A program made the position numbers and the translations under genes. 64,000 nt of DNA, from positions 124,001-188,000 of the forward strand of contig NZ_FTNC01000002.1 in NCBI RefSeq assembly GCF_900156285.1. Direction: 5' to 3'. Origin of the DNA: Halanaerobium kushneri. GTDB taxonomy: Bacteria; Bacillota; Halanaerobiia; Halanaerobiales; Halanaerobiaceae. The notes beneath the pieces were generated by a model that was not told the origin of the DNA, did no database searches, and worked only from the letters and a program-made list of their open reading frames with translations. Numbering within the stretch: position 1 is the first letter of the stretch; every line of letters starts with the position of its first letter. This document shows, one piece after another, positions 2,272 to 13,436 of this stretch.

Positions 2272-3021
2272 TTACTGGGCTTTCTTTGTTTTCTTTTGCT
2301 GATCTAAGAGTCGATGACTGGATCCATTAAATAACATTATCTTGCTGTTGTGAATCAGTCTATCAATAATTGCAGCAGTCATTCTTTCATCATGAAATAC
2401 TTTAGCCCATTCAGCAAATTCAAGATTGCTGGTTAAAAATATAGATCCTTTTTCATATCGTTCTGAAAAGATTTGGAACATTAATTGTGTCGCCTGATTT
2501 GATAATTCAACAAAGCCCAATTCATCAATTAATAATAAATCCAGTTTGTTGATCTTCTTTAAGAATTTAAGCAGCTGCTGCTTTTCCTGCATCTCAATTA
2601 GTTGATTACACAAACCAGCTGCTGTGAAGAATCCAACTGTTTTACCCAGTCTGCAGGCCTCAATACCTATTGAAATCAGCAAATGGGACTTCCCAGTACC
2701 TGGTGATCCTAAAAATAAAACATTGGTGTTTTGATCAATAAATTTGCAGCTAAACAATTCCATAACTTCAGTTTTAGATAAAAAAGGAGCTTCAGAAAAA
2801 TTAAACTGTTCGATTGTCTTTAAATTAGGAAATTTAGCCTGTTTAAAAAGCCTATTAAATCTGTTGTTTTCTCGCATGATAACTTCATATTCAACAAGGT
2901 TACTAAAAAATTGTTCATGGTTCCAGTTGTTATCTCTTGCTTCTTTTAGAATATCATCATAGCATTCTACAATGCCTGGTAGGCGGCAGAATTTAAGCTG
3001 TTCTCTTAATTTATCATCCAT
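2272..3021 (-). CDS. istB: IS21 helper ATPase IstB
   Basis: IstB is the AAA+ partner that selects target DNA and activates the IstA transposase. A Walker A site GSPGTGKSHL lies near residue 105, a Walker B site LLLIDELGF near 160, and ILTSNLEF/FLTSNLEFAEW-like sensor sequence follows; length (249 aa) is typical. Its start overlaps the end of the istA remnant by 8 bases, the translational coupling usual for this family. The gene looks intact although its partner istA is broken, so it could only act in trans with another istA copy. Confidence 0.93.
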   Translation of the reverse strand: MDDKLREQLKFCRLPGIVECYDDILKEARDNNWNHEQFFSNLVEYEVIMRENNRFNRLFKQAKFPNLKTIEQFNFSEAPFLSKTEVMELFSCKFIDQNTNVLFLGSPGTGKSHLLISIGIEACRLGKTVGFFTAAGLCNQLIEMQEKQQLLKFLKKINKLDLLLIDELGFVELSNQATQLMFQIFSERYEKGSIFLTSNLEFAEWAKVFHDERMTAAIIDRLIHNSKIMLFNGSSHRLLDQQKKTKKAQ

Positions 3022-3357
3022 TTATCTCACCACCTTTTACCAGTAAAGAATCGTAATCGCTTAAAGGAAGATGAGTAGTGTAGATATGGTCAATATTAAG
3101 CTCTTTCAGGATATCATCTGCTAAATACTGTGTACCAGTGGTACACTGAGTTTGGTAACGAAGTACACTTAATACATCCTGGTAACTGTATCTGTTTTTC
3201 TGGTCAAGGTCTTTTAAAATTCTGCTGATGGTTGGAATTGAATATTCTTCTGTCAGTCTTAAAATATCAATGAATTCTCTGGTTCCTTTAGATTTTGATC
3301 TTAAATGAGCCTGGATTAATCTATGATATTCATCAAAAATTTCTGGCAGTTTCCAGT

Positions 3358-3480
3358 TGTGATTTTGCAAATTAATCCAGTTAAATTATTCAGATTAAAT
3401 CAGCCTAAATTATCTAAAATTACAGCATAATTTTCAAATTGAATTAGTAAAAACAAAAATATTTTGCAGATTAAATTAGC
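3358..3480. repeat. Left end of the nested transposon: inverted repeat plus subterminal repeats
   Basis: Four related words stand in the same orientation: GATTTTGCAAATTAATCCAG (3361), TTATTCAGATTAAATCAG (3387), TTTTCAAATTGAATTAG (3431) and TTTTGCAGATTAAATTAG (3462). They are probably transposase-binding sites, by analogy with Tn7 and Mu ends. No gene is present. Confidence 0.65.
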
Positions 3481-3527
3481 AAGGGACTTAAAAATAAGCC
3501 CCTTTAATTTGAATAATATTTTTCACT

Positions 3528-4328
3528 TTAAAATGTATCTTTTTCGCAGGCTTTGAAGACAATTTCCTGGTTTATCTGTTCTGCTTTAAGCTGAAATCCT
3601 AAAAGCAGCGAGTTAACTGCGATATTGTTGATCAATCTGGGTAGTCCTCTGGATCTCAAGGCAATTGCCTCCAGAGCCTGAGGTATGAATATTGGGTGAT
3701 TTGCTCCAGCAAGCTCAAGCTGGTGCTCAACATACTCTTTGACTTCCTCTTTGTTTAAAGGATTTAACTGATACTTCATGATTACTCGCTGATTTAAGGA
3801 CTGATTATGATTCAAATTTAGCTTGGTCATAAAGTGAGATAAACCAGCTAAAATAAGAATAAATGGGTTCTGAGAATCCATAGCAAAATTAAATAAAATA
3901 CCAAGATCACTCAAAAATTTGTTGGGAGCAAGCTGCATTTCATCTAAGATAATGATCGGGGTAATCTTTTTCTCGTTGTAAAACTTTAAGATAGCAGCCT
4001 GAACCTGATTAAAAAGGTCCACCTTTCTGAATTTAGGTTCTTCTCCCAGGCCAATGGCTATCCCTCTGTAAAAATCCATTACTGAGCCTGTAGATAAGGG
4101 GAAATAGATGACCTTAAATAATGATGGATTAACACTGTCAGCCATAGATCTCAGGGCAGAAGTTTTACCACTTCCAGGTTCACCAATAATGACAGCAATG
4201 CCTCTTGTTTTTTTAAGATAGTCAAGTCTGGCAGAAAGTTCTTTTAAGTTTTCAGACTGGTAGAGATCTTTAGTTGCAATCTCTTTTTTAAATGGATTAT
4301 CTGATAAAGAATAAAAAGATTTATACAT
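3528..4328 (-). CDS. AAA+ ATPase of the nested transposon (ExeA/TniB/TnsC-like)
   Basis: The 266-residue protein is a single AAA+ domain. Walker A is GEPGSGKTSAL (K55, T56) and Walker B is PIIILDEMQL (D129, E130). The opening MYKSFYSLSDNPFKKE is typical of ExeA-like ATPases, and a lid-like helical region rich in leucine closes it (RGLPRLINNIAVNSLLLG). Its start overlaps the end of the transposase gene by 8 bases, implying coupled translation. By analogy with MuB, TniB and TnsC it should bind target DNA and recruit the transposase. That role is inferred from the operon and not from any residue unique to transposition. Confidence 0.85.
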   Translation of the reverse strand: MYKSFYSLSDNPFKKEIATKDLYQSENLKELSARLDYLKKTRGIAVIIGEPGSGKTSALRSMADSVNPSLFKVIYFPLSTGSVMDFYRGIAIGLGEEPKFRKVDLFNQVQAAILKFYNEKKITPIIILDEMQLAPNKFLSDLGILFNFAMDSQNPFILILAGLSHFMTKLNLNHNQSLNQRVIMKYQLNPLNKEEVKEYVEHQLELAGANHPIFIPQALEAIALRSRGLPRLINNIAVNSLLLGFQLKAEQINQEIVFKACEKDTF

Positions 4329-5586
4329 TTTTGCTGCCTCCTTCAGTCATTTTAGCAAAGGAGAGAGGATTACCTCTTTTAGCATGAGCATTATCAGCCA
4401 TAATCACAGGCTCAGCTTTAGTAATACATTTACCATTTTCATAAAGATAAATATTATCATATGTTTCCTGATCAAAGCGGATCTTAACCTTTTTGCCAAT
4501 ATAGACAGGAGGAACCTGATAGAGTTTAGAGTTAACCGATATAGTTCCGTCGTGTCTAACTTTTCTCTGAGCTCTTTTGAGAAAAAGCAGCTTAAGTTTT
4601 TCAGGCTCATCATAGGTTTTAACCTGACTAATCTGGGACATGTATTTATCCAGAGGAGTCATCTTCAGAGAAGAGTGCACTTTACGGTGATAATCTTTTT
4701 CCAGCCACTTAAAAAAGCTCTTGTTTAGCTTATCCAGGGAAGATAAATCTTTATCAGTTAAAAGAGGTAAAAATCTTTTTCTGACAGTTAAGTAAAACCT
4801 TTCAATTTTGCCTTTATCAGCAGGTGAATACGGCTTAGTGTGAATCAGGGTAATACCCAGCGAAGCACAGGCAAAATGGAGATTATCACTGCGATAGACT
4901 TTACCATTATCAACATAAAGGAGTTTTGGAATACCTCTTCTTAAAATAGCTTCTGAGAGTACCTGCTGCACAGCAGAAAACTTTTCTGTTGTTAAGAATT
5001 TGGCATAAGTAATAACCCTGGAGAAGTCATCAATAAAGGCAAAGAGAAAAGTCTTAACCTTTTTGCCATCAAGGTTGAGATAGGGTCCATACATCTCGTC
5101 TCCCTGCCAGAGCATATTAACCTGATCATAGGCAAAACGGCGTCTGTTTTCTTCTTTGCGGGGAGAGTTGACCAACAGGTTCTTCTTTTTAAGAAAGCGA
5201 TAGACAGTAGAATAGGAGGCCTGAGAGGGCAGCATTTTCTTTTCCGTAATCAGCTGATCGTAGAGCAAAGAAACAGACCGATCAGGATGTTCTTTTCGGG
5301 CTTCTAAAATAACTTCCTTAAGTTCTGGAGTTAAAACACGACTTTTACCTCTGTCATTTCTGGGTTTGGGTTTCAGCCCTTCAAAACCACCTTTGCGATA
5401 GGCTCTAACCCACATGGATATGGTTTTTGGTGAGTATTCTCTGACACCATAATAAGGGACATTATGTTTTTTAGCAGCCACCTTTGCCAGATACTCGTTC
5501 TGTTTTTTCACCTGTCTATTCAGGATAGGTGAAATGAGGGAAAAGCGGAATAGAGCTATCTGTTCTCTGTCATTATCAGTCATCAA
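4321..5586 (-). CDS. DDE (rve-core) transposase of the nested transposon
   Basis: The protein has 421 residues. The N-terminal half holds two helix-turn-helix units (about 50-75, YSPKTISMWVRAYRKGGFEG, and 100-135). The retroviral-integrase core follows, with D163 (QGDEMYGPYL), D226 (LLYVDNGKV) and E262 (PADKGKIERFY). The D-E spacing of 35 is the classical one. The C-terminal part (about 340-400) is a beta-rich Mu-transposase-type domain (VNSKLYQVPPVYIGKKVKIRF). It resembles IS481/Mu-type transposases in sequence but sits beside a dedicated ATPase. It is intact and presumably cuts the TG...CA ends found here. Confidence 0.9.
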   Translation of the reverse strand: MMTDNDREQIALFRFSLISPILNRQVKKQNEYLAKVAAKKHNVPYYGVREYSPKTISMWVRAYRKGGFEGLKPKPRNDRGKSRVLTPELKEVILEARKEHPDRSVSLLYDQLITEKKMLPSQASYSTVYRFLKKKNLLVNSPRKEENRRRFAYDQVNMLWQGDEMYGPYLNLDGKKVKTFLFAFIDDFSRVITYAKFLTTEKFSAVQQVLSEAILRRGIPKLLYVDNGKVYRSDNLHFACASLGITLIHTKPYSPADKGKIERFYLTVRKRFLPLLTDKDLSSLDKLNKSFFKWLEKDYHRKVHSSLKMTPLDKYMSQISQVKTYDEPEKLKLLFLKRAQRKVRHDGTISVNSKLYQVPPVYIGKKVKIRFDQETYDNIYLYENGKCITKAEPVIMADNAHAKRGNPLSFAKMTEGGSKNV

Positions 5587-5738
5587 AATCAGCTCCTTTA
5601 AGCTTGAATTTTAGCATTTAAGAGCAAAATTGTTCTTAAACTGCTGATAATAACATTTTAATCAGAAAATAACTCTTTTCTAGTGAAAGCTTTTGTGTTT
5701 AAAAAAATAGTTCCAAAAAGTCAATCTTTATGGTACAA

Positions 5739-6263
5739 TTAAAGTGCCATAAAACATTGATTAAAGTGATCCTGATACTCTTTTGAGAGTATCTGAGCGT
5801 CGGAGCTCCAAATCATTTTAATTAGTTTTGTGGCTTTTTTTATTCTTGATAATTTAAAGGGGATCAGTGAGTGATATTTATCTCTGAAAAAAGCAATTAG
5901 ACCAGGAATATTGCAGGTAAACCTGTGCAGATAAAAATATACTGCTCGTTTGTAAAGAAGTAGTTTTTTCTGCAGCAGATATTCTTTCATACAGCAGACA
6001 ATATAATTTAGAGATCTCTGAAATCTAGGGAAGAGAAAAGCTGGAAGAATGGAAACAGTTTTCTTACAGTGCTGGCATTTGTATCTTCTAATTTGTATCC
6101 AAAAGCATTGGTTATCGATGGTGATTACATAGCGGTGGTAAAATCCATGTTTAAGAAGTTTATCATGGCAGTGAGGACATTCTTCAGGGTGAGGAAAATT
6201 ATTATTCTGGCCGAGCTCAGAATATTTTTTTACAGGTATTTTAAAGTCATGAATGATTTGCAT
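5739..6263 (-). CDS. Zinc-ribbon protein of the nested transposon, unknown role
   Basis: The protein has 174 residues. Two paired cysteine sites, CPHC and CQHC, about 35 residues apart, form a zinc ribbon like the N-terminal finger of ISL3-type transposases. A basic helical C-terminal half follows with no DDE core. I think it belongs to the uncharacterised DUF6431 group. The ATG at 6263 is preferred because TTAGGGTG lies upstream; a TTG at 6290 would add nine residues. It stands first in the element, just inside the right end. A DNA-binding or target-choice role like TniQ/TnsD is plausible but unproven. Confidence 0.7.
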   Translation of the reverse strand: MQIIHDFKIPVKKYSELGQNNNFPHPEECPHCHDKLLKHGFYHRYVITIDNQCFWIQIRRYKCQHCKKTVSILPAFLFPRFQRSLNYIVCCMKEYLLQKKLLLYKRAVYFYLHRFTCNIPGLIAFFRDKYHSLIPFKLSRIKKATKLIKMIWSSDAQILSKEYQDHFNQCFMAL

Positions 6264-6294
6264 CTGATCACACCCTAAATATTCTGACAATATT

Positions 6295-6386
6295 TTATCA
6301 GATTAATTTAGGAAAAGAAAGTGCTTGCTTTAAATTATTTTGATTAATATTTATCGTTTTCTAGTGGATTAATTTGATAGATAACA
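6295..6386. repeat. Right end of the nested transposon
   Basis: The terminal repeat (6365-6386, read inward TGTTATCTATCAAATTAATCCA) pairs with the left end. Two looser copies of the subterminal motif follow: about 6337-6356 inverted (ATAAATATTAATCA) and 6295-6312 direct (TTATCAGATTAATTTAGG). The repeat organisation differs from the left end, as is common in directional transposons. Confidence 0.55.
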
Positions 6387-7726
6387 TCCAGTCCTGGATC
6401 ACTTTTGCCTGATCATATCCTCTAGCTTTTTTCCTGAGTAAACTCAGGAAATGATAGGGATAAAGAATTTCTTTGTTTTTACCAAAGAGCCTATCATGTA
6501 CGGCAACCACTTTATCATTGTAGACCAGTCTGATTTCAAATGGATATAGTCTGGCCTGTAGCCTTTTGCCAACATATTCAGTTGGTACAGAATATCGATT
6601 GGTATCTATATGGACCAGCTGATAGCTGCTAACTTTAACATCTTTAAGACGGGCATAGTCATAAATTTCTGTTAGAGGAAGAAAATCTTCTGCTAATAAC
6701 CTTTTCTCCCAGGTTTCACCGAGATGTTTTTTGGTTCTAAGTCTATGCTGACATTTTTTAAGCAGCATCTGATTTGTATCTTCATAACTGATAAATTCTG
6801 GTCTTGGTAAGAAGTAATTATTCTGAACATATTTTACTAAATTTTCAACTAAGCCCTTTTCGTTACCCTTGCCAGGTCCACAAAACTCTGCTTCAAAAGA
6901 GTAAAATGATTGTATTTTAAGGAATTCCTGCTGCAGTATACGATCCTGCTCTTTAAGAACTGTTTTTACTGCTGGTTTAAGATTATCAAAAATAATCTTT
7001 TTAGGAATACCACCAAAAAATTTAAATGCTGAACTAAGTCCATCAAAAAAGAATTCTGTCTGTTCTCTCGGATAGGCTTTAACAAATTCACCTTTGCCAG
7101 AGCATAATTTAGCACAGAAGGCATGCTGCTTGACAGGAACACCTTTTTTCACAGAGTATACTTCACCAAAATCAACCTGTAGGGACCCACTAATTGGAAC
7201 CAGTTTCAGATAGGCTTCCTGCTGGTTTATATGGAGTTTTTCTTCCTCCTTTCTACACTGATAAGTAAAGGAAGAATAAGTACCTGAATAGCCTTCTTCA
7301 CGGATTAATTCATACATCCTGAGTTTAGTTAATTTTTGTCCTTTAGGAGCTTCACTGTTTTCTTTAACCATTATGTTTATTCGCTTTTTGAAATCACCAT
7401 TTACTAGCTGAGGTCTGTCTGTACTTAGCCTGTATTTTTGTTCTGGGTTTGCAATAGCTTTAGTTACAGTATCGCGATGTATCCCAAGTTCGCTTGCAAT
7501 AGCTCTCTTACTTTTCTTTTGATTAAAATATAGAAACCTAATATAATTATATTGTGCCATCTCTTTCACCTTTCTTACCTCCTGTTTATAATGATTATTG
7601 GATAAATCAATTATACAGGAGATGGTGTTGAGGTGGTACACTTTTCGATTAGCAGAATATTATTTTTGGTACACTTTTAGTTTAGCATATGCACCTATTT
7701 CAAAAATCTATAGTCAAGAACTTTTC

Positions 7727-10138
7727 TTAAAACTCAAAATATGGTAAATCTGTATTTAATTCTTTACAAGCTAAAAATGATTTTTCTGCATCATTAAATT
7801 CATTTGACCATTTAATTAAAAATTCAAACTGATAAAAACCACCAATTTCAGCTTTAAAATTTGTTTCCCAATAATTACTTAAAGCCCATGCATATACATT
7901 TTTTTTGAGTTTTTTTAACTTTTTAGAACCTTTGAGTAAACGATTTCTATATTTAAGATCTCCAATATGTATAATTGGAGTGTCAGGTGTTGCTACAGTT
8001 ATTCCACTATTTTTTGTGATAATTGAAAATCCTTCCTGAACACAATAAAAATCTGTTAATGTACCGGGTAACTGGTCTTTCCAAGGTTCTATTTGTCCAC
8101 CAGTTTTATGAAGAAAAATATTATTAATCTTAGAAGAATCAGCAGAAAAGGGTAAGGAGATGTATAAATTCTCTGCCTCCCAGTTACATGTTTTTAAAAA
8201 TCTTATAGTACAATCAGCTTGTGGCTTATAATGATATGCTCTTATTTTAAGCAAATAATGTTTAAGTCCAGGGGAACTATATTTTAATTCTACTTCAGTG
8301 AAAAGTTTATTCTCTTTTATTGATCTTAAACCTGTGAATTTTCCAATAAATCTATTTACTTGACAATTCTTGCGATTTCTACCCATCGAAACTCTTGTTT
8401 TAATTATATCCTCTTCATTCTTTGCAGGATTCATTTCATAAATTGGAGTAAAAGGATTATGTACTCTTTCATCAGATAATAAACTTATTTTATTTTTCTT
8501 ATCAAACCACTTTGTAATTCCTTTTTCTTTTTCCCATTCAAGTTTAACATATGGAGTTTCCAGAAAATGCTCACCAGATTCTGATTTACAATTTAGATTT
8601 GATTTTAATTCTGTATCTACAATAATTCCAGACTTATCTCTATAACTAACATTACCTCGCATATCAAAACTACTCCGACTTATCTGGCTATTTTCATATT
8701 TTTTTTGAATATCAATTGTTTTTGTTTTTTTTGCCTCAACACAAATATTCATAAACAATGAATTACTCTCTTTATCAAAATATTGTTTTTTGGGAATCTT
8801 TTTATTAATTATACCAACCATCTTTTCATTATTTTTTATAGACTCAGAAATAGGAAATTTATATAATTTATTGACCTTAAAGGGCATTGGATTAACTATT
8901 TTAATTTTTTTAGAATTAATTAATTGAGCATTTAAAATTCCTTCGGAAATTAATAGTTCATTAGTTATTTTACTTATATAATTATATGCTTGAGTAGCGT
9001 ACTGCTTTTTGGTTTCAGAAATTATATTTACTTTATTTAAATAAGGATGTGACACAGATTGATGATGTCCCCAAGTATGTTCAGCATATAGACCTAGAAG
9101 TTTTTCTGCTTTTCTAATTTTAGTATCGTCTTTAGTATTATACTTATCTAATAAATTACGATAGTATTTCAGTTTTCTTTGAGCTAAACGAAAAGTAGAT
9201 GTAGTTCTTGCAGTACTAATTACTCCATCTGTCCACCAGTCTGGCCAATCCCCGCTATATACTGGAATTTTCACATCTGTATTTCTAATTTTTTGAAATA
9301 CTTCATCTATTGTTACCATTTTCAAAAATATCTTGTCACCATAAGACTTATTCCACTTTTTTATCATTTTGATAATATTCTCATTTGGGGGGGCATTATC
9401 AATCACTTTTCCACTAACTGTAATCGGAACGAAGTCAAAAGGATAGTTTTCTTCTTCTAATTTCTCTAAATATCTAGGAATTCTAACTTCTGCAATAGAA
9501 AATGGTTCCATTTGATTTAAATCTAATTCATCATCTATAAATTTCCCATGTATTGGTCCAATACCAAGATCATTTCCAAACATATAATGATCTCCATTCC
9601 AAACCAGCACTTTATTTTCTTTAGGAGTCTTCCAGTAAAATGGAAATTGTCTTCTTCCAATAGGAAACATTCCATGATGACTATGGGTACAGCTATAAAG
9701 ATTCTTAATCCCATTGCTATATAAAATTTCAGAAAAACCCCAACTATAACCATTAATATCCGCAGTTAATGCTGTTTCTAGATTTATAGAATTTTCTTTT
9801 GAAAAATCCACAGCACGTTTTGTAAGATTATTTAGTACTTTATAATCAAGAAGTTCAGTAAAATTCAGATAAGAAGCTGAAAGCCCTATTTTACCTTCAA
9901 TAACGTATTTTATGAATTGTTTAAGTTCATCAGATTGAGCTTTTTTTAAAAATTCTTCAACGCTCCAAAAAGTTTCACAATTCCACTTATACCCTTCTAA
10001 TGATTCTTTAGATAACATCTCTATTACTTTTCGAATATAATTAACATGACGTAATTTAATAATATTTTGTTCTGCAGTAAAACCAATATCTGTATGAGAA
10101 TGATTAATAACAAAAATTGTCCACTTTCTTTTTGGCAT
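7727..10138 (-). CDS. GH38-type alpha-mannosidase-like glycosidase
   Basis: The 803-residue cytoplasmic protein begins with the GH38 metal-site signature HSHTDIGF (H13, H15, D17). D127 in TADINGYSWGF is the likely catalytic nucleophile/zinc ligand, and WPDWWTDG and AEHTWGHHQSVSHP are further active-site segments. A large beta-sandwich C-terminal region follows. It is more divergent than the other GH38 in this operon (13463-16090), so the substrate may not be a plain mannoside. It is the last gene of the operon and lies 34 bases from the IS21 insertion. AAAGGAG precedes the ATG. No signal peptide is present, so it would act on imported sugars. Confidence 0.8.
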   Translation of the reverse strand: MPKRKWTIFVINHSHTDIGFTAEQNIIKLRHVNYIRKVIEMLSKESLEGYKWNCETFWSVEEFLKKAQSDELKQFIKYVIEGKIGLSASYLNFTELLDYKVLNNLTKRAVDFSKENSINLETALTADINGYSWGFSEILYSNGIKNLYSCTHSHHGMFPIGRRQFPFYWKTPKENKVLVWNGDHYMFGNDLGIGPIHGKFIDDELDLNQMEPFSIAEVRIPRYLEKLEEENYPFDFVPITVSGKVIDNAPPNENIIKMIKKWNKSYGDKIFLKMVTIDEVFQKIRNTDVKIPVYSGDWPDWWTDGVISTARTTSTFRLAQRKLKYYRNLLDKYNTKDDTKIRKAEKLLGLYAEHTWGHHQSVSHPYLNKVNIISETKKQYATQAYNYISKITNELLISEGILNAQLINSKKIKIVNPMPFKVNKLYKFPISESIKNNEKMVGIINKKIPKKQYFDKESNSLFMNICVEAKKTKTIDIQKKYENSQISRSSFDMRGNVSYRDKSGIIVDTELKSNLNCKSESGEHFLETPYVKLEWEKEKGITKWFDKKNKISLLSDERVHNPFTPIYEMNPAKNEEDIIKTRVSMGRNRKNCQVNRFIGKFTGLRSIKENKLFTEVELKYSSPGLKHYLLKIRAYHYKPQADCTIRFLKTCNWEAENLYISLPFSADSSKINNIFLHKTGGQIEPWKDQLPGTLTDFYCVQEGFSIITKNSGITVATPDTPIIHIGDLKYRNRLLKGSKKLKKLKKNVYAWALSNYWETNFKAEIGGFYQFEFLIKWSNEFNDAEKSFLACKELNTDLPYFEF

Positions 10139-10211: not shown

Positions 10212-11117
10212 TTATCCTATACTCACTTTTTTTACTCCAAACTCCTTTAATTTTTTAACTAGAGAAGCTTTTTCAGTTTCTGAGAACATCTTGGTTTCAA
10301 AGTAATTAATATTACCTATATTCTTATTTTTAGAAATTCCCCAATTATTATAAAACATAATATGGGTTTCTAAAATACTTTTATATTTATTCGAAAGGTC
10401 TGCTATTGCTTTATAATGTTCATCGCAATTATTTATTCCCGGAATAATTGGGCATCTTAAAATTACATTTGCATCTCGATTACATAAAAAATCTAGATTA
10501 GATAATATTAATTCATTGGATACTCCAGTATATTTTTTGTGCCTATTTTTTCCTGTAATCTTATAATCAAAAAGAAATAAATTTACCAGCGAAATAATTT
10601 TTTTATAATTGCTTTCTTTAGCGTATCCACATGTTTCTATAGCTGTGTGAATATTTTCTTGCTTACATTTTTCCAGTAATTTCACCAAAAAATCGATTTG
10701 AACAGTTGGTTCCCCACCAGATACAGTTATACCACCACCAGAATTATCATAAAACTTCTTATCTTTAATAACTTCATCCATTACCTCTTCCACTGAAACG
10801 CTTTTCCCTATGATTGATAATGCATCTAACTCACAAACTTCAATACATTTTCCGGACAACTTACATTTATCGAAATAAACATAATGTTTACCACTAACAA
10901 AGTTATGTACACCATTACCACAACTTTGTTCACACATCCTACAATTTATACACTTACTCTCATTATAAGATAACTGAGCTTCATATTGTTGTGACTCTGG
11001 ATTATGACACCAGATGCAATTTAGTGGACATCCCTTTAAAAAAACGGTTGTTCTTATTCCCGGCCCGTCATGAAATGAGGATCTATTTATATTATAGACT
11101 AATCCCTTTTCTGACAT
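10212..11117 (-). CDS. Glycyl radical enzyme activating protein (radical SAM)
   Basis: The 301-residue radical-SAM enzyme abstracts hydrogen from the glycine of its partner glycyl radical enzyme. The SAM cluster motif CPLNCIWC (C30, C34, C37) sits near the N terminus, preceded by SSFHDGPGIRTTVFLKG. Two ferredoxin-like cysteine groups follow (CINCRMCEQSC and CKLSGKCIEVC). Extra clusters of this kind mark activases of dehydratase/lyase-type enzymes and are absent from plain PflA. SGGGITVSGGEPTVQ is also conserved. The ATG at 11117 has AGGAG 8 bases upstream and is preferred over the ATG at 11138. The gene lies 57 bases downstream of the enzyme it must serve. Confidence 0.92.
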   Translation of the reverse strand: MSEKGLVYNINRSSFHDGPGIRTTVFLKGCPLNCIWCHNPESQQYEAQLSYNESKCINCRMCEQSCGNGVHNFVSGKHYVYFDKCKLSGKCIEVCELDALSIIGKSVSVEEVMDEVIKDKKFYDNSGGGITVSGGEPTVQIDFLVKLLEKCKQENIHTAIETCGYAKESNYKKIISLVNLFLFDYKITGKNRHKKYTGVSNELILSNLDFLCNRDANVILRCPIIPGINNCDEHYKAIADLSNKYKSILETHIMFYNNWGISKNKNIGNINYFETKMFSETEKASLVKKLKEFGVKKVSIG

Positions 11118-11174
11118 GTTTACAACTCCTAATACCATTTGAACTTTTTGAATTATAGATAACTTAATTAAACC

Positions 11175-13436
11175 TTAATAAATAGTTCTACCTATTATAT
11201 CCTTCTGAACTCCCTGCTCAAGATCAACAAACCTTGCAGTATAGCCTCCAACACGCACCACTATATTCTGGTACTTTTCAGGTTCTAACATTGCCTTTTC
11301 CAGATCTTCTTTATTTACAACACTAATATTACATTGCGAACCACCAAGATCAAAATAAGTGTATAACAATTGCTTCAGCTTATTTCTTTCTTTATTAAAT
11401 AATTTCTTGCTAAACTTGAAGTTCTGAGCAATACCAGCATGAATATCACATCTCATTTGTGTAAGTGAATTAATCAAAGCAGTAATGCCTTGTGTATCCA
11501 TCCCCTGAACAGGGCCATTGGCATTCGATAAAGGTGTCCTGCAGAGCCTTCCATCAGCTGTTGCAGCTGTGAATTTTCCTAAAGTTGTATTGGCACTATT
11601 ATTTATTTCCACGACCAGAAAAGAATCTAAACATGTATTTTGATTTTGTTTTTTTGTAATATTACAAATATGTTCATGAACTCTAGCCGCCATCCTGTCT
11701 GCCTGTGCTTCATCATTTCCATACTTGCTTATATTCAGTAGATACCGTCTTTCTTTTTCAAAGCCTTTAAAATTATCATTTAGCATTTCTAATAAATATT
11801 CAGCCGAAAACGTCTTCTTATCATAAATAGCTTCTTTTATTGCAGCTAAAGAATCAGATGTAGTAATATTTCCATATGTCTCTATAGTCCCTCCAAGATG
11901 CTGTATTCCACCATCAAGAGCAGCTTTTCCTTTAGAAAGACAGTCACTCATGAGCATACTTTGAAGCAGAAAAGAACCTTCTTCATTTAAGGTTTTATAT
12001 ATCTGCTCTTGAATTTTTGCTGCCTTTTCAATAAAAAATTTAATTTGCTTGTCATAAGCAGCAAAAAAGTCCTCAAAAGTTTTAAAATCATTAAGGTTGC
12101 CAAGTTCTAAACCAATAACATCTCCTGTCAACAAATCTACACCATTATTTAAAGTAACTTCAACTATTTTAGGCATATTAATTATTACATTGGGAGTTCC
12201 CAGACTTCTATGACCAAGGATAAACTCTCCACATCCAAAAAAAGAATAGTCCTCTGCAACTTCCCGTGTCACTTTAAAAGCTTTTTCGACACCTGGAACA
12301 TTAACATCATCATTATATAAAACAGGAAAAGTAAGACCAGTTCCAAGTAGATCAAGTGCTTTATCCATGAGACAAGAATTCATTCCCTCATAATATCTTA
12401 GACTTGTTTGAGGAAACATACCTCCTGCCCTTTTAGTGGCCTCCATGGCAATAAGTGCAAATTCATCTGCATTATTCTCATTCCACCTTCCCACTCCACC
12501 AAGAATAACTCTGCTATTCCTCCCATACAATTGATCTATTAGTTTAAAAAGAGAAGTCAAAAGCTGAATAGCTTTTTCCTCTGTAATAATATCATTATTC
12601 CGATCATTAACATAGAGATCACCAAGTACTACATCCATCCTATTAAAATCCGTAATCCCAGCAACTATATTAAAAATCCAAATAAGTTGTAAAGCTTCCC
12701 TAAAAGTAGCAGGTTTATTATTTTTAATATTAGAGATAGTATTCTTGATTTCATGGAGTTCTTCTGCTTTATCAACAGTTATATCTGCGGCCTTTAACTG
12801 TCGATTTATATCTTTTATATAATAGTCCCAAGCATATAGAATTAAATCCAGAGCACCATTAAGACCAGTATAGAAATCTTTGTTTCTGCCATATTTTTTT
12901 GCTTTTTTCAAACCATTATTAATTTCTTTGCGTAAGCCTGGTATACCTACTTGTATAAGTTTTTCATGGTCCACCTGAAACTCTGCTATCCTATATAATG
13001 GATGGATAATAGCACTTTCATTCACCCAATCATCAGTAGGAGCTGCATATTTCATAGTAGCTGAAAACGCCTGGCGCGCCTTGTAATTTGTATTTTCAGT
13101 TTCCCAAAAATCACACATATCTTCAACTAATCTTTCATATTCTTCATCTATATTCGAACTATTTAACTTCTCTTTTACCCTACCTAAATCATAACAATAA
13201 CCACATCTATCAATTTCATCACTTGTTCCTTCACCATACACTATATGATGAAATCCAATAGTGTTATACTCTATTCTACCTGCTAATAAATCATTGTCTT
13301 TCATAGGTCTAAGCATTGTAGGAAGCTGAACTTTTAAACACTCCAACTCTCTTATTGACTTTGAAGCATCCTTATATTTTTTGTATGTTTCAGTAAAAAG
13401 TAGTTCAGCATCCAAAGATTTTAGTGTTTGCCTCAA
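11175..13436 (-). CDS. Glycyl radical enzyme of unknown substrate (PFL/dehydratase superfamily)
   Basis: The protein has 753 residues. The glycyl-radical loop near the C terminus reads RVGGYTARF, with G731 as the radical site. The thiyl cysteine is C402 in FFGCGEFILGH. C-x-E (C402, E404) is the arrangement of dehydratase-type enzymes such as glycerol dehydratase and choline lyase, while pyruvate formate-lyase has two adjacent cysteines. The glycine between C and E is unusual; the familiar form is GCVEP. The start is TTG at 13436 after AAGGAGG. Encoded between two GH38 enzymes and next to its activase, it probably acts on the sugar or aglycone they release. Substrate unknown. Confidence 0.9.
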   Translation of the reverse strand: MRQTLKSLDAELLFTETYKKYKDASKSIRELECLKVQLPTMLRPMKDNDLLAGRIEYNTIGFHHIVYGEGTSDEIDRCGYCYDLGRVKEKLNSSNIDEEYERLVEDMCDFWETENTNYKARQAFSATMKYAAPTDDWVNESAIIHPLYRIAEFQVDHEKLIQVGIPGLRKEINNGLKKAKKYGRNKDFYTGLNGALDLILYAWDYYIKDINRQLKAADITVDKAEELHEIKNTISNIKNNKPATFREALQLIWIFNIVAGITDFNRMDVVLGDLYVNDRNNDIITEEKAIQLLTSLFKLIDQLYGRNSRVILGGVGRWNENNADEFALIAMEATKRAGGMFPQTSLRYYEGMNSCLMDKALDLLGTGLTFPVLYNDDVNVPGVEKAFKVTREVAEDYSFFGCGEFILGHRSLGTPNVIINMPKIVEVTLNNGVDLLTGDVIGLELGNLNDFKTFEDFFAAYDKQIKFFIEKAAKIQEQIYKTLNEEGSFLLQSMLMSDCLSKGKAALDGGIQHLGGTIETYGNITTSDSLAAIKEAIYDKKTFSAEYLLEMLNDNFKGFEKERRYLLNISKYGNDEAQADRMAARVHEHICNITKKQNQNTCLDSFLVVEINNSANTTLGKFTAATADGRLCRTPLSNANGPVQGMDTQGITALINSLTQMRCDIHAGIAQNFKFSKKLFNKERNKLKQLLYTYFDLGGSQCNISVVNKEDLEKAMLEPEKYQNIVVRVGGYTARFVDLEQGVQKDIIGRTIY

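Follow-up and report, generated by a model that had tools for sequence, protein, structure and literature searches.

A complete transposon interrupts an IS21 istA gene

The window, a 64,000-nt stretch of Halanaerobium kushneri contig NZ_FTNC01000002.1, contains a complete 3,029-bp element at positions 3358 to 6386. The element starts with TGTGATTTTG and finishes with ATAGATAACA, and thus has TGT...ACA ends. A repeat search and the alignment of copies delimited a left (ATPase-side) terminal inverted repeat, TGTGATTTTGCAAATTAATCCA, at 3358 to 3379 on the plus strand, and a right one at 6365 to 6386 on the minus strand, which closes in ATAGATAACA. The repeats are 22 nt long, with a complementarity of 82%. 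The 6-bp target-site duplication (TSD), TCCAGT, is present at 3352 to 3357 and at 6387 to 6392, as established from the flank sequence and a test of the istA frame.

The interrupted gene is istA, the transposase gene of an IS21 element. In the ORF list, its 5' part lies at 6393 to 7641 on the minus strand and its 3' part at 3014 to 3357; the istB of the same IS21 lies at 2272 to 3021. Excising the element together with one TSD copy in silico produced a single uninterrupted IstA frame of 530 aa, and this restored IstA aligned without interruption over the junction to a second IstA of the same genome. The joined flanks, representing the empty site, were not found in any of the 12 genomes of the genus that we searched. 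Therefore, we infer the insertion event from three things: the restored istA frame, the duplication, and the existence of other element copies. The original prediction of exact boundaries, with TGT...ACA ends, a 6-bp duplication, and an istA frame restored on removal, was borne out, and the other copies stop at the same bases.

An IS30-like transposase gene is located near the interrupted IS21, at 924 to 2039, so that three different mobile elements occur within 7 kb. On the other side, at 7727 to 10138 and 10212 to 13436, there is a glycoside hydrolase family 38-like protein (Pfam), and the ORFs next to it look, by eye, like a glycyl radical enzyme with its activase.

Three conserved genes and their relatives

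All three genes expected from the original prediction are present as ORFs on the minus strand. The AAA+ ATPase (3528 to 4328; 266 aa) carries an AAA_22 domain (Pfam) and is related by profile comparison to Tn552 p271 and MuB. It overlaps by 8 bp the DDE transposase ORF (4321 to 5586; 421 aa), whose product contains an HTH, an rve core, and a Mu-transpos_C domain, as determined by Pfam, alignment, and profile search. Its start is probably the ATG one codon past the TTG. The catalytic residues D163, D226, and E262 are found in the alignment, giving the D-D-35-E pattern of a DDE transposase. The third ORF (5739 to 6290; 183 aa as called) encodes a zinc-ribbon protein that belongs to Pfam family DUF6431 (PF20020), as seen by Pfam, alignment, and structural model. 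Judging from its relatives, this ORF probably starts at an internal ATG at about 6263, giving 174 aa.

The three genes are conserved and under purifying selection, with a dN/dS of about 0.03 to 0.12 for all three and of 0.08 to 0.12 for the DUF6431 gene, in comparisons having enough synonymous changes. Between the window element and its copy at locus L033, the DUF6431 gene differs by only five changes, which makes dN/dS uninformative for this pair. Divergence between these two copies over 3528 to 6290 is uneven: dS is 0.019 for the DUF6431 gene versus 0.43 for the ATPase gene. This gene-wise unevenness suggests recombination between element copies.

Among structures in the PDB, the DDE profile matched TnsB of a type V-K element best (E value of 1.3e-11, residues 52 to 386). 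The DDE protein also matched a PHROGs transposase family (5.7e-60), and the ATPase matched a PHROGs DNA transposition protein family (2e-16). The DDE protein scored 71.9 bits against Tn552 p480, even though the p480 compared was a fragment, versus 12.6 bits against TniA; in profile comparison it matched TniA at 92.6%, over the catalytic core, and IstA at 3%. The ATPase matched Tn552 p271 at 97%, MuB at 96%, TniB at 26%, and IstB at 35%, the last over the P-loop alone. By these sequence comparisons, the nearest characterized relatives among those tested are Tn552 (p480/p271) and Mu, with TniA further away and IstA/IstB far. The original prediction had read the element as Mu-, Tn7-, and Tn5053-like. 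Its core stands, as a three-gene transposon of the Mu/Tn552 type. A special kinship with Tn7 or Tn5053 is not supported; the ATPase is nearest to p271 and MuB and only weakly TniB-like.

In the staphylococcal plasmid pMW2 (L166, 5776 to 7176), the Tn552 p480 gene is apparently frameshifted, with a longest open piece of 278 aa. This region has an identity of 99% or more to many other plasmid records.

Both ends carry multiple sites

A motif search located four 17-bp sites in the ATPase-side end, at 3361 to 3377, 3384 to 3400, 3428 to 3444, and 3460 to 3476. They correspond to end positions 4, 27, 71, and 103, and the inner ones are weak (6.5 to 8 bits). The zinc-ribbon-side end has sites at 6367 to 6383 and 6314 to 6330. 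Subterminal copies of this motif of about 17 bp were observed in both ends of diverged elements, at recurrent positions. On the ATPase side, position 27/28 was occupied in 10 of 16 elements, position 59 (reverse) in 5 of 16, and position 71 in 5 of 16; on the zinc-ribbon side, position 79 (reverse) was occupied in 8 of 16. No position recurred in the internal control stretches. The motif density per position and strand was 0.0037 to 0.0056 in the ends versus 0.0003 to 0.0012 internally. Inward of the outermost copy, it was 3 to 19 times that of the four internal control stretches. The multiple end sites of the original prediction are thus above chance, and their positions recur.

The element belongs to a widespread family

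In other Halanaerobium genomes, the alignment of copies to the element runs from base 1 to base 3029 and goes no further. The genus holds four more full-length copies and four partial ones that begin or end at identical bases, and one copy bears a TSD of its own, CAAATT. One contig of H. saccharolyticum, of 3,030 bp, consists of the element alone, from TGT to ACA. Contigs equal to exactly one element also came from Metabacillus, Bacillus, Ureibacillus, and Geobacillus (e.g., L082, L106, L113, L115, L117, L132, and L143). Element-only contigs of this kind are what a multicopy repeat usually leaves in an assembly of short reads. The source genome has one copy, and several other genomes have multiple copies.

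Scanning 84,980 genomes with the transposase profile, we confirmed 412 relatives and retained the best 80. The order DUF6431-DDE-ATPase was found in nearly all loci that are intact with respect to contig ends. The hosts are mainly Bacillota, and elements also occur on plasmids of Pseudomonadota and Actinomycetota. The same three-gene arrangement is present on annotated plasmids of Cupriavidus, Acidithiobacillus, Streptomyces, Mycobacterium, and Geobacillus. Our own profile scan, rather than the annotation, identified the ATPase in Acidithiobacillus and, weakly, the DUF6431 gene in Mycobacterium. Of 299 genomes of the phylum, 66 (22%) had a DUF6431 match above the cut-off; the 14 control genomes had none. 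A transposase gene adjoins the DUF6431 gene in 24 of 30 loci, by a table count in which a short flank was examined. The viral contigs searched yielded a single locus. The search for other copies with the same ends and the same three genes thus revealed a family, whose Halanaerobium members end at the same bases. We also looked for copies with different ends and encountered none; the TSD length varied from 5 to 7 bp.

Several loci depart from the standard arrangement. In Streptomyces (L161, 4808 to 5086), an extra 92-aa ORF with no Pfam match lies between the DDE and ATPase genes. In three genomes (L210, L211, and L212), DDE/ATPase elements have a cysteine-poor 234-aa protein in the DUF6431 position, which is devoid of the zinc cysteines and matches the DUF6431 profile weakly (P of 6.5e-4, probability of 28%), and small ORFs of unknown family downstream of the ATPase gene. 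The L212 element was delimited at 4,326 bp, with a 7-bp TSD, TCACTTC. In L214 (G010:C21, 3693 to 6941), the transposase gene is split at about codon 256 to 263 by a run of three tyrosine recombinase genes (Phage_integrase), and the insert resembles a recombinase-in-trio element sitting inside the transposon. In L217 (G107:C24, 1733 to 2506), a single frame matches both the ATPase and the DUF6431 profiles, possibly as a deletion fusion of the two.

Insertion sites are diverse

We delimited 26 elements, each with a perfect TSD, TGT/ACA ends, and a terminal repeat on either side. The TGT/ACA ends are partly built into this set, because the end search demanded them; that copies with different flanks stop at the same base is independent of this requirement. 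The TSD was 6 bp long in 13 elements, 7 bp in 10, and 5 bp in 3. The 7-bp TSDs occur mainly in Bacillaceae; in the Halanaerobium lineage, the TSD is 6 bp. A shuffled control was exceeded by the TSDs of the Mycobacterium, Geobacillus pGS18, and L212 copies but not by those from Cupriavidus, Streptomyces, and Acidithiobacillus.

We identified the target genes by eye after restoring their frames. They include genes for hydrogenase, transporter, TetR, and peptidase proteins; insertions also lie in intergenic DNA and, frequently, in other mobile elements. The mobile elements, which hold a sizeable share of the insertions, include the IS21 of the window, an IS3 (L083), group II intron reverse transcriptase genes (L150 and L152), and other transposase genes; the copies at L151, L153, and L159 are also in mobile DNA. 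In Thermoanaerobacter wiegelii, four of the five listed copies sit in other mobile elements. The 26 targets share no common sequence beyond a weak, symmetric, A/T-centered preference. We rejected site-specific targeting on the basis of these 26 targets.

The DUF6431 protein is most likely a DNA-binding accessory

The model of the whole DUF6431 protein (pLDDT of 91) has a Cys4 zinc ribbon followed by a five-helix C-terminal domain. Across 54 sequences, the four cysteines never vary, and a C-terminal F-M-A or close variant is strongly conserved in the Bacillota set. Directly after the ribbon, the Streptomyces and Cupriavidus relatives have a Pfam HTH (HTH_28 at 27.7 bits and HTH_23 at 25.2 bits, both above the cut-off); these matches occur in the relatives, not in the DUF6431 protein of the window. 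Fold searches with the whole model and with the C-terminal domain (pLDDT of 89) gave as best matches the NrdR zinc ribbon (Z of 3.5) and the Apaf-1 CARD (Z of 4.1), which are too weak to use. TniQ was not among the matches of the whole model or of the domain, which excludes nothing. At the sequence level, we found no similarity to the TniQ or TnsD tested (no PF06527 match; 0.8% for TniQ and 0.7% for TnsD in profile comparison), and we dropped the idea that the protein is homologous to them.

Because it combines a zinc ribbon with HTH-bearing relatives, the DUF6431 protein is most likely a DNA-binding accessory that acts on the element's own ends, on its promoter, or as a nonspecific target adaptor. 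The plan of a zinc ribbon plus an HTH is found in IS1 InsA and in the N termini of several transposases. Tentatively, and at somewhat below even odds, we favor a role at the ends or promoter of the element itself, following the logic of IS1 InsA, because the gene is the first one, beside one end, and its product has the ribbon-plus-HTH plan. A non-sequence-specific adaptor between target and ATPase ranks next and seems rather unlikely.

Proposed mechanism and alternative readings

Judged from its anatomy, the element appears almost certain to be of the Mu/Tn552 type and built for its own movement, and the window copy is complete and probably autonomous. We suggest that the DDE transposase binds the site array at each end and brings the two ends together. 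From the chemistry of its family, it would then nick the 3' ends at TG/CA, and these would be joined to the target at positions staggered by 6 bp, or by 7 bp in Bacillaceae. The AAA+ ATPase may assemble on target DNA and activate the transposase, as MuB does and p271 probably does.

The original prediction had proposed that the zinc-ribbon protein may choose the target. As a target selector, it would bind either particular target DNA or some host factor, thereby recruiting the ATPase, as TniQ/TnsD does for TnsC. The plan of the element does match that of systems with a transposase, an AAA+ protein, and a zinc protein, the co-occurrence of DUF6431 is near-universal, and the conserved F-M-A tail could dock on a partner. 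Several copies are lodged in other mobile elements; however, such insertions may merely reflect survival. The DUF6431 gene also comes first, not behind the ATPase gene. Since the protein lacks sequence similarity to the TniQ/TnsD tested and the insertions fall in varied targets (hydrogenase, transporter, and TetR genes among them), the data give no support to a site selector of the Tn7 type, and we regard target selection as an unlikely role. A broader version, in which this is a pan-bacterial, unnamed Mu/Tn552-type family with diverse insertion and DUF6431 is a new target adaptor of the ATPase that replaces TniQ, strikes us as doubtful.

The best NCBIfam model for the DDE protein is IS481 (NF033577, 206.6 bits), and RefSeq labels some copies as IS481 family transposases. 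This could mean that the element is an ordinary IS481-family insertion sequence and that the other two genes are incidental passengers. However, this score does not reach the curated cut-off (224), a Mu C-terminal domain is part of the transposase, and the ATPase and DUF6431 genes are co-conserved across phyla under purifying selection. In a coarse FastTree, the DUF6431-associated transposases grouped together (support of 0.95), apart from Tn552, TniA, TnsB, and MuA, although IS150 was wrongly drawn into the group by its long branch; single-gene IS481-like transposases of related genomes branched elsewhere. We therefore consider the IS481 reading improbable. It is still harder to see the element as a decayed or mosaic remnant, with ends and genes joined by recombination and an inactive window copy. 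The single copy in the source genome and the uneven divergence from L033 would fit such a remnant, but the three frames are intact, the TSD is perfect, the ends equal those of other copies to the base, and several genomes have multiple copies.

Novelty and comparison with known systems

Each gene already has a database name, and some of the transposases are called IS481 family in RefSeq. In the open papers that we searched, neither the three-gene set as a family nor DUF6431 as a transposition protein is described, and the sole mention of DUF6431 is an annotation beside a DDE transposase. Provisionally, the family thus appears to be undescribed in this literature; subscription papers, ISfinder, and TnCentral were outside its scope. 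The family ties a domain of unknown function to transposition in a compact three-gene system of the Mu/Tn552 type, with several members from thermophiles and halophiles. Small systems with AAA+ assistance lend themselves to the question of how an ATPase picks targets without TniQ. Should the zinc-ribbon protein prove to touch the ATPase, it would represent another way, independently arrived at, of recruiting targets.

With Tn7 and CAST, the element shares a transposase whose best PDB match is the type V-K TnsB. Unlike them, it has no TnsA gene, no similarity to TniQ/TnsD, and no recurrent attachment site. A survey of TnsC describes TniQ/TnsD as ubiquitous in its Tn7 clade (PMC10293859), and the word DUF6431 is absent from that survey. 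The TniA-like catalytic core and a three-protein machinery that includes a zinc protein are common to Tn5053/Tn402, whereas TniQ and a resolvase with res are not, and the TSD is 6 or 7 bp in 23 of 26 elements rather than 5 bp. IS21 corresponds in kind in two of the three parts, DDE and AAA+, but the ATPase is not of the IstB type (PF01695), with which it shares the P-loop alone. IS481 elements have TG...CA ends and lend their name to several members. They are typically single-gene and without an ATPase, whereas this element has three genes and a DDE protein below the NCBIfam cut-off.

Mu has in common with the element an HTH-rve-Mu-C transposase, an AAA+ partner, and site arrays at both ends. 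However, the element is not a phage and has no other Mu genes, it contains DUF6431, and its TSD is 6 or 7 bp; that of phage Mu is 5 bp. Tn552 has the same two-gene core of DDE and AAA+ and is the nearest tested relative of both proteins, but the homology is distant and the transposases are far apart (branch of about 1.5). Tn552 duplications are 6 to 7 bp. One element called a Tn552 derivative has a 7-bp site (PMC12486829). Tn552 itself is larger, with resolvase and beta-lactamase cargo and no annotated DUF6431 gene in pMW2; the 3,029-bp element of the window has three genes only and no serine resolvase. We group the present elements as DUF6431-DDE-AAA+, defined by the Z-D-A order, TGT...ACA ends, and a 6- or 7-bp TSD, all of which are found in the window element.
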